From contig NZ_CP009429.1 in the NCBI RefSeq assembly GCF_001314325.1, positions 3,286,501-3,350,500 of the forward strand: a DNA stretch of 64,000 bases, read 5' to 3'. Positions 61,643-64,000 of this stretch are shown here, piece by piece; the stretch's first letter is position 1; every line of letters begins with the position of its first letter. Under the pieces are notes generated by a model that did not search any database, was not told the DNA's origin, and was given only the letters and a program-made list of their open reading frames with translations. The position numbers and the translations under genes were made by a program. The stretch comes from Sphingopyxis macrogoltabida (GTDB lineage Bacteria; Pseudomonadota; Alphaproteobacteria; Sphingomonadales; Sphingomonadaceae).

Positions 61643-61718
61643 TTCGCGCCGTTTGACAGGGAAGTAGCGCATTGCCCTTCCCTCCCGTGCACGCCATGAT
61701 GCGCGGCGGGGGAAAGCC

Positions 61719-62699
61719 ATGCCGGCACAGGTTTTCATCAGCTATTCGTCGAAGGACCGCACCGTCGCGAATATGGTGTGCGCGTTGCTCGAAGAGCGCG
61801 GGCACCGCTGCTGGATCGCGCCGCGCGACATCCTGCCCGGCGCATCGTGGGGCGAGGCGATCATCGACGGGCTGAAGGAATCGGCCGTGTTCGTGCTGGT
61901 CTTTTCGCAAAACGCCAATGCGTCGCCGCAGATCCTGCGCGAGGTCGAGCGCGCGGTGCACCTCGGCCTGCCGATCATCCCCTTTCGCATCGAGGATGTG
62001 CTGCCCGAACGCAGCCTCGAATATTTCATGAGCGTGCCGCACTGGCTCGACGCGCTGTCACCGCCGGTCGAGGACCATATCGTCCGGCTGGGCGATGTCG
62101 TCGGCCAGTTGGTGCACGGCGCGGCAGGCCGCGGCGATTATATCCCGCGCAAGCCGCGGGGCGCGAAAAGCGTGAGCTGGAACAACGCGCTGGTCCGCGC
62201 GGGCGCGGGCGGCGCGGTGCTGGCGCTGCTGCTGCTCGCCGCTTGGCTGGGCGGGCTGGCGCCGCCGGAATCGCCGGTCGGCTGGCTCGCCGCGCTGCTC
62301 GCCATCGCGATCCCCGTGGGGGCGATTGCCGCTGGCGGCGCGAAACTATGGACCAGAGGCTGGGTGCGCGGCGTGCTGCTCGCGCTGCTGCTCGCGGCGG
62401 CAGCGGGATATGGCTGGACGCGCAGCGCCTATGTCATCGCGGGCGAGAATGGCGCACCGCTAGTGCGCGGCACCGAGTGTACGCCTGACGCGAAGCTGGT
62501 GTTCGAAAGCGAATGCCCCGATCTGCCGTCCGACGCGCTGGCCGATGCGGCCTATGATCCGGCGATGCTGTGGACGGCGGCGTCGATCGGGCGGGTGAAG
62601 CTGATGCTCGCCGCCGCCTGGGCGCTCGCGGCGGCGGTGGCAGCGTTGCTCGTGGCGGGATGGATGGGCGGCCCGCGGCGGCTGAAACAGGAGGATTGA
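61719..62699 (+). CDS. TIR-domain membrane protein
   Basis: This 326-residue protein joins a cytoplasmic N-terminal TIR domain (about 4-125) to four membrane helices (about 160-180, 188-208, 215-233 and 292-315). The TIR part reads VFISYSSKDRTVANMVCALLEERGHRCWIAPRDI and ILREVERAVHLGLPIIPFRIED; Glu75 in REVERAV lies where NAD-cleaving bacterial TIRs have their catalytic Glu. The loop at about 234-291, with Cys254 and Cys266, should be periplasmic by the positive-inside rule. The next gene starts one base after the stop, with its ribosome site GGAGG in this gene's end. Role is unknown; TIR proteins often serve defence or NAD signalling. Confidence 0.85.
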   Translation: MPAQVFISYSSKDRTVANMVCALLEERGHRCWIAPRDILPGASWGEAIIDGLKESAVFVLVFSQNANASPQILREVERAVHLGLPIIPFRIEDVLPERSLEYFMSVPHWLDALSPPVEDHIVRLGDVVGQLVHGAAGRGDYIPRKPRGAKSVSWNNALVRAGAGGAVLALLLLAAWLGGLAPPESPVGWLAALLAIAIPVGAIAAGGAKLWTRGWVRGVLLALLLAAAAGYGWTRSAYVIAGENGAPLVRGTECTPDAKLVFESECPDLPSDALADAAYDPAMLWTAASIGRVKLMLAAAWALAAAVAALLVAGWMGGPRRLKQED

Positions 62700-62700
62700 G

Positions 62701-63687
62701 ATGGGCAAGGCGAAGATGCTGATGCTGCTGGCTGCGGTGGCGTCTCCGGTGACGGCGACCGCGAAGGAACCGCTCGATGCCGCGGGGCTCAAGGCGATCG
62801 AAACGCGGGTGCCGCCGCAAAGCTGGTACCCCGACGGCTATTACGACATCCGCATCGCCGCCGAGGGGCAGGTCGCCGATTTCCCGCGCGAGACGCTGAC
62901 GATGGACTGGGGCGACGGGCAGCCGCCCTATTACGACGTCATCGACTGCAACGCCGAATATGTCAGCCTCGACGAAACCGACCCGCTGACCGCGCGCTAT
63001 GGCCCGGTGGCGCTCGAGGTCGCGCGGCTGCGCGGCGAGTTCGAGCGGATGAAATATCCGCTAGCGGTTTATGCCGGACCGCTGCTCGAGTTCGAGAAGG
63101 CGAAGATCGAAGAGGCCAAAACCGCACCCGAACCCGTGTCCGAAGCCGAAATGAGCGACGCGATGGCGATGGAGGCGAGCGCCGCTGCCGACGCGGCGGT
63201 CGCGGAGGCTGCTGCCGATGCTGCTGCGGCGGCGGATGCGGCGTCGATGGAGGCCGCACCCCCGGCCGATGGCGGCATGGACGAGGCCGAAACCTATAAC
63301 GACCCCTATTTTCTGCTCGCCAAGGCAGTCGAAGCGAACCGCGAGCGGCTAGCGCCGAAGCTGCCGAAGGTGCTTGCCGATGGCGGCTGCGGCGCCGGCG
63401 AAGGGAGCAGCGTCATCGTCAAGACGGTGCCGCCGCAGGGCGAGGTGCTGCTGATCAACGCCTTTGCCTTCAAGGTTTGCACCCGCAAGAAACCTGACCC
63501 GTGGGATCGCTTCGCCTGCAAGTGGAACGAGATCGAAACCGGCGTCGAGAAGCCGCTTTCCGGCCGCTATGTCTATCAGGTCAAATGGCCCGACGGGACG
63601 GTGCGCAAGGGAACCCGCGACATCGTCCCCAATTACGAAGATGAGGCGGTCGCGGCCGTGGTGACCTTCAAGAAAGTCGGAAGCTGA
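62701..63687 (+). CDS. Secreted protein of unknown family, paralogue of the next gene
   Basis: This 328-residue protein has a signal peptide (MGKAKMLMLLAAVASPVTATA). WYPDGYYDIRIAAEGQVADFPR at about 42-63 is almost repeated in the next gene. The middle (about 140-195) is an Ala/Glu-rich low-complexity linker. A C-terminal domain has VIVKTVPPQGEVLLINAFAFKVC and SGRYVYQVKWPDGTVRKG. Cysteines 83, 230, 260 and 273 could form two disulphides in the periplasm. I recognise no family. Coupled to the TIR protein (one-base gap), it may contact the TIR protein's periplasmic loop. Not found elsewhere in the window. Confidence 0.8.
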   Translation: MGKAKMLMLLAAVASPVTATAKEPLDAAGLKAIETRVPPQSWYPDGYYDIRIAAEGQVADFPRETLTMDWGDGQPPYYDVIDCNAEYVSLDETDPLTARYGPVALEVARLRGEFERMKYPLAVYAGPLLEFEKAKIEEAKTAPEPVSEAEMSDAMAMEASAAADAAVAEAAADAAAAADAASMEAAPPADGGMDEAETYNDPYFLLAKAVEANRERLAPKLPKVLADGGCGAGEGSSVIVKTVPPQGEVLLINAFAFKVCTRKKPDPWDRFACKWNEIETGVEKPLSGRYVYQVKWPDGTVRKGTRDIVPNYEDEAVAAVVTFKKVGS

Positions 63688-63689
63688 CG

Positions 63690-64000
63690 ATGGGCGGTCG
63701 GACGATCGCAGCGCTGCTGATGCTGGCGAGCCCGTCCGTTGCCATGGCGCAGGATGCCGCCGCCGATGACGGTGCAGCCATGAAAGCGCTGGAAGCCGAT
63801 GTGCCGCAACAGCCGTGGTATCCCGGCGGCTATTACGACATCCGGATCGCGGCCGAAGCACAGGTCGTCGAATTTCCGCGCCCGGCGAGCGATCTGCCCG
63901 CGACGCCCGAACAATCCTATAATCTGGTTGCTTGCGATGTCGAACGGCCGGGGAACGATGCCTCCGATCCGATGCTGGAACGCTATGGCTATGTCGCGCT
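63690..64000 (+). CDS. Secreted protein, tandem paralogue (3' end outside window)
   Basis: Only the first 103 residues are present. A signal peptide (MGGRTIAALLMLASPSVAMAQ) is followed by a short acidic spacer. PQQPWYPGGYYDIRIAAEAQVVEFPR then closely matches the previous gene's WYPDGYYDIRIAAE segment. A Cys in VACDVERPG corresponds to Cys83 there. It starts two bases after the previous stop, so it belongs to the same operon as the TIR protein. The two secreted proteins arose by duplication. The ending and any further genes of the operon lie beyond the window. Confidence 0.8.
   Translation, partial: MGGRTIAALLMLASPSVAMAQDAAADDGAAMKALEADVPQQPWYPGGYYDIRIAAEAQVVEFPRPASDLPATPEQSYNLVACDVERPGNDASDPMLERYGYVA

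Follow-up and report, generated by a model that had tools for sequence, protein, structure and literature searches.

A TIR domain joined to a four-helix membrane domain and encoded with secreted paralogues in Sphingopyxis: a possible two-part envelope receptor

At the end of the window analysed here, which is the whole 64,000-nucleotide stretch of Sphingopyxis macrogoltabida DNA, a gene for a TIR protein with membrane helices is followed head to tail by two genes for secreted proteins, designated Sec1 and Sec2. To our knowledge, the known bacterial TIR systems respond to cytosolic events. This arrangement raises the question whether a bacterial TIR domain can be driven from outside the inner membrane, and whether such an operon serves defence. 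The first gene displays the following features:

61719..62699, + strand: TIR/membrane protein of 326 aa, a TIR_2 domain joined to a four-helix membrane domain
61731..62051, + strand: TIR_2 domain, residues 5-111 (Pfam, alignments)
61941-61943, + strand: codon of Glu75 in the TIR_2 domain
62205..62261, + strand: TM1, residues 163-181 (hydropathy; helix in a low-confidence model)
62277..62333, + strand: TM2, residues 187-205 (hydropathy; low-confidence model)
62358..62420, + strand: TM3, about residues 214-234 (helix in a low-confidence model; under the hydropathy cut-off)
62427..62588, + strand: two-cysteine loop between TM3 and TM4, residues 237-290, presumably periplasmic (invariant cysteines; lowest dN/dS)
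62478-62480 and 62514-62516, + strand: Cys254 and Cys266 of the two-cysteine loop
62601..62657, + strand: TM4, residues 295-313 (hydropathy; low-confidence model)

The TIR_2 match (E 2.1e-22) scored 80.3 bits against a curated Pfam cut-off of 28. Glu75 was unchanged in the 16 full-length orthologues aligned, which represent 16 of the 17 carrier genomes; G027 was left out, its TIR gene being cut by contig ends. The residue was also kept in all eight diverse TIRs compared. Its counterpart in an alignment with the C. elegans tir-1/SARM1 chain is the glutamate of the segment HKEL, which we take to be the catalytic glutamate of SARM1-type TIRs. A glutamate at the equivalent place is also found in TIRs devoid of NADase activity. 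Cleavage of NAD by means of this residue is the probable chemistry of the domain.

The earlier note on this DNA had described a TIR domain joined to four helices and a loop with two cysteines, and this layout was confirmed. At a hydropathy cut-off of 1.6, TM1, TM2 and TM4 were detected and TM3 was not, yet TM3 is helical in the low-confidence model. The AlphaFold model of the protein was weak (pLDDT 55.9, 16 close sequences); used as a Foldseek query it retrieved TIR structures, with TIR-STING as the best match (E 4.5e-5). The topology was read from the sequence and its hydropathy: as the TIR domain is taken to be inside, the two-cysteine loop would lie outside. Cys254 and Cys266 were invariant in all 16 full-length orthologues and in each of the 18 membrane domains compared across the wider family, and the residues invariant across these 18 aligned domains lie mostly within the loop. 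Moreover, the loop is the most constrained region of the protein, with a median dN/dS of 0.11 compared to 0.16 for the TIR domain, 0.20 for TM4 and 0.41 for TM1-3 (NG86, 10 pairs with the window sequence, within the genus).

The two downstream genes follow at gaps of one base (TIR gene to Sec1) and two bases (Sec1 to Sec2), and their products have the motif WYPxGYYDIRIAAE in common. Spacing, paralogy and motif had all been reported before and were found in the sequence as described.

62701..63687, + strand: Sec1, 328 aa, with signal peptide, helical N-terminal domain, variable linker and C-terminal beta domain
63406..63684, + strand: C-terminal domain of Sec1, residues 236-328, the best-conserved part of the Sec family
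63690..64000, + strand: Sec2, paralogue of Sec1, 285 aa; the gene leaves the window and ends at 64547 (L004:4191-5048)

Signal peptides of the Sec proteins were assigned by reading the sequence. Searches of Sec1 against Pfam, PADLOC and NCBIfam returned no family above threshold; likewise, no model of these collections exceeded its cut-off for the pair of Sec and four-helix domain. Among known folds, the transthyretin/CnaB-like beta sandwiches were set beside the C-terminal beta domain as a candidate likeness. Apart from the start methionine, all residues invariant in 14 diverse Sec proteins belong to the C-terminal domain. The N-terminal part and the linker are more variable, and the N-terminal parts diverge between copies. 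In a tree, first-position and later-position copies formed largely separate lineages, which indicates that the paralogues are old. Broken or cut copies were excluded from the tree and from alignments A2 and A3. One Sec protein carries a lipobox, as judged by reading its sequence, and would stay attached. Disrupted extra copies were seen in G026 and G055 (L074:10637-11696, L075:9846-11644); matches to the flanking genes are likewise split in G055, where assembly errors are possible. Two near-identical orphan Sec genes are present in G012 and G032 (L080:8877-9794, L081:8430-9350), and TIR queries found no match adjoining them.

Sec was present in 17 of 148 relatives, all of them within the genus. 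The TIR query matched 24 of 80 genus genomes, 17 of which hold a close orthologue of the TIR/membrane protein (at least 71% identity over the matched stretch). These are the same 17 genomes that contain Sec, and the genes are adjacent in every one of them; the pairing is beyond chance. Each operon comprises one TIR gene and one to four Sec genes on the contig, some of them cut or disrupted, and G012 would reach five Sec genes provided that two of its contig ends adjoin.

Within the genus the chromosomal position of the operon is fixed. Upstream and divergent from it are genes for a TonB-dependent receptor and a DUF6607 protein, which precede it in 13 of the 17 carriers including the window. 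Downstream and convergent is phoH, followed by the genes for MiaB, an acyltransferase and Fur. Fourteen carriers display phoH after the operon on the same contig, and in the other three the contig ends first. Twenty of the 63 non-carriers were examined: two showed different neighbours, and in 18 the site was empty, a distance of 0.2-2.3 kb separating phoH from the genes for the TonB receptor and DUF6607, with neither a TIR nor a Sec match between them. Profile searches at E values up to 1 revealed no operon remnants in the 10 of these 18 gaps that were searched. The gap between phoH and the TonB receptor gene can hold other genes in non-carriers, with open reading frames of 578 and 202 aa (L120:1147-3409, L115:1169-2053), and the site may take up varied cargo.

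Alignment of the regions upstream of the TIR start revealed a promoter-like pair:

61672..61700, + strand: TTGCCC - 17 nt - CATGAT, upstream of the TIR start (upstream alignment)

The pair was found in all 15 upstream regions aligned (15 of the 17 carriers). TTGCCC was invariant, and the second hexamer was invariant at five of its six positions. The TTGCCC/CATGAT pair escaped a stricter, consensus-based scan, whose promoter-like site lies at another position on the opposite strand. Between 61540 and 61650, upstream of the TonB receptor gene, there is an inverted repeat TTGCGA...TCGCAA accompanied by a second AT-rich element. By their resemblance, these elements are possibly iron-regulator sites.

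Outside the genus the operon has a different composition. The Sec profile, run on 298 genomes of the family, gave two strong matches outside the genus (G417 and G213) and a weak one in G399 (E 0.003). Overall, three of the 298 family genomes are strong positives; the weak match in G399 and those in seven genomes (E 2.6e-4 to 0.009) were not counted. In a class-level search of 385 genomes the own genome alone was positive. The module is rare. In both G417 and G213, a small protein is encoded directly 3' of Sec that corresponds to the C-terminal half of the window TIR protein and contains the helices and the two-cysteine loop without a TIR domain. A genome search with the membrane domain yielded 15 loci, five of them outside the genus and one of these being G417 again. 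The six non-genus loci are thus those of G213, G417, a Phenylobacterium MAG, Alteraurantiacibacter aestuarii, a Sphingomicrobium MAG and an Acidobacteria MAG. Sec adjoins the four-helix, two-cysteine domain in all six (Sec E values 1e-10 to 3.5e-69). Two loci were found via Sec and five via the membrane domain, and therefore the adjacency is not built into either search.

In five of the six loci the membrane domain lacks a TIR; there, the Sec gene precedes that of a free-standing membrane protein. Further candidate pairs without TIR are known from metagenomes (proteins P0182-P0202). The Sphingomicrobium locus has a fused TIR, with the TIR/membrane gene preceding Sec as in the window, so that both gene orders occur among the non-genus loci. 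Because five of six loci are devoid of TIR, the partner of Sec is the membrane domain rather than the TIR. What is conserved is thus the pair of Sec and four-helix membrane domain, to which the TIR is added as an output. The proposal that secreted genes sit beside TIR genes was borne out in 17 of 17 cases inside the genus and not in five of the six loci outside it. A single origin of the TIR fusion is possible: in the tree the Sphingomicrobium version stands apart from the genus, but a single clade was not rejected (p-AU 0.265), and identity is 65.9% in the TIR parts compared to 37.6% in the membrane parts.

A mobile or viral origin was considered and rejected. No viral contig encodes the four-helix domain, none of nine pattern matches being confirmed, and Sec1 had no match among phage records. 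Plasmids did not match the TIR-less protein; four matched the TIR part only, at 27.5-32% identity.

Gene order, co-occurrence, domain layout, the pattern of conservation and constraint and the TIR-less versions point to a two-part envelope receptor with TIR output, in which Sec is the sensor on a transmembrane four-helix protein that gathers cytosolic TIR domains. We give this reading a probability of roughly 55%. As to location, docking, signal direction and catalysis, it predicts that Sec is exported and located on the outer side of the inner membrane, with its conserved C-terminal domain docked on the two-cysteine loop. Such docking is the simplest reading, because both conserved outside parts travel together with or without a TIR. 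A change outside, be it a ligand, envelope damage or phage entry, would be read by the variable N-terminal part and linker of Sec; this variability and the tandem copies would suit a sensing role. The sensed change would rearrange or cluster the four-helix protein and thereby bring the cytosolic TIR domains together, which may then cleave NAD+ or make an NAD-derived signal. Clustering and NAD+ cleavage, the mode of action of other TIRs, are probable here as well. The secreted proteins beside the TIR gene probably act as its outside sensors. The previously suggested signalling from outside sensors across the membrane to the TIR agrees with the anatomy and with the joint occurrence of Sec and membrane domain even where the TIR is missing; the view of the TIR as the core of the system did not hold, the constant pair being Sec and the four-helix domain.

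The genomic context gives hints of what the receptor would serve. In the Sphingomicrobium MAG (L100:341-7250), cas9 lies on the strand of Sec and starts about 250 bases downstream of it; cas1, cas2 and three CRISPR-like repeats come next. In Alteraurantiacibacter (L099:5487-14572) the pair is flanked on one side by a tRNA-Leu with a tyrosine integrase and on the other by genes for an HNH nuclease and McrBC, so that the region resembles a tRNA-Leu island. Defence genes are thus located beside two of the six non-genus loci, and none were noticed in those stretches of the other four that were read. Next to the window operon, the scanned proteins are housekeeping proteins, in agreement with the former statement that no defence genes are nearby; weak ATPase-type PADLOC matches of the window phoH (E 3.5e-4 to 7.2e-4) were discounted. 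A defence role, which the earlier note suggested as one candidate function of the operon, is plausible if thinly supported, with the two non-genus loci speaking for it and the genus locus not.

The same context bears on a different explanation, namely that Sec and the four-helix protein are an envelope housekeeping pair for assembly, redox or transport, to which the TIR is a scaffold or regulator devoid of an immune role. The five non-genus loci without TIR would fit, as would the fixed place of the genus operon between the TonB receptor gene and the PhoH-MiaB-acyltransferase-Fur genes, outside any defence island. Against it stand the rare and patchy occurrence of the pair (17 of 80 genomes in the genus, three strong matches in 298 of the family, one in 385 of the class) and its position in an integrase island at one locus and next to CRISPR-Cas at another. 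We regard this explanation as unlikely.

A second alternative inverts the sign of the signal: the TIR would be active by default and held off by Sec bound outside, and loss or capture of Sec would free the TIR and kill the cell. Tight gene coupling and several Sec genes per TIR, with one TIR per operon throughout, could reflect an excess of inhibitor. However, the order of translation in the genus is TIR first and Sec second, some Sec genes are orphans without a TIR, and TIR-less pairs need no inhibitor, which makes this guard arrangement quite improbable. That released Sec acts on other cells or on a host, with the TIR as a side gene, would accord with its export, duplication and diverging N-terminal parts and is very improbable, as Sec and membrane domain are neighbours in all six distant loci and the copy with the lipobox would not leave the cell.

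The two-part receptor reading was compared with known TIR systems. No Thoeris effector model, ThsA or other, was matched among the neighbours scanned, and the operon ends at the convergent phoH. The curated Thoeris models were not reached by the TIR protein itself (ThcB4 19.7 bits vs 220; ThsB_TIR 17.2 vs 21.2). The same applied to the CBASS/Pycsar TIR effector model CAP12/PCTIR (12.9 bits vs 24.7), and the scanned neighbours matched no cyclase model. Furthermore, no ThsA, CD-NTase, Argonaute or CARF model was matched among the proteins scanned. With Thoeris, CBASS TIR effectors, SPARTA and Cat1 the window protein shares a TIR with a glutamate at the catalytic position and, probably, NAD chemistry. 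In contrast to these systems, which read cytosolic signals, the window TIR is fused to a four-helix membrane domain and coupled with a secreted partner. No description of a pairing of TIR/membrane protein and Sec was found in the portions of the open literature available, including PMC10907252 and PMC7159879, in which other names for such a pairing may be missed.

Animal Toll-like receptors likewise combine an outside sensor, a membrane passage and a cytosolic TIR, and would be alike in working if the model is right. They differ in that no leucine-rich repeats were seen in the window system and that its sensor is a separate secreted protein; common descent is not claimed. A bolder version, which we put forward tentatively and regard as somewhat doubtful, takes the system as the Gram-negative counterpart of Toll-like receptors: a periplasm-facing immune receptor in which tandem, diverging Sec sensors report phage entry or envelope breach via the four-helix, two-cysteine domain to a cytosolic NAD-cleaving TIR, the TIR having been added to an older TIR-less pair. 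If a TIR is indeed driven from outside the inner membrane, bacteria would possess a receptor with the layout of animal Toll-like receptors, and one route to such receptors would be the gain of a TIR by an existing outside sensor pair. The TIR-less relatives of Sec and membrane domain suggest an undescribed sensing module able to drive TIR output, and the pair offers a test case for the action of one sensor with and without a TIR.

Domain matches suggest that the combination of a TIR with an outside domain is a recurrent one in the genus. Two genus proteins have the order TIR_2 - helix - LprI (L059:868-1974, LprI above the cut-off; L050:1477-2496, slightly below it), and a third has the order TIR_2 - helix - DUF3617 (L053:1048-2079, DUF3617 above the cut-off). 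These proteins are possible one-piece outside-sensing TIR receptors. Like the window protein they would have TIR_2 inside and a domain outside, with one membrane helix by reading. Unlike the window system they consist of a single chain with another outside domain, and TIR identity is 28-33% in the three aligned.
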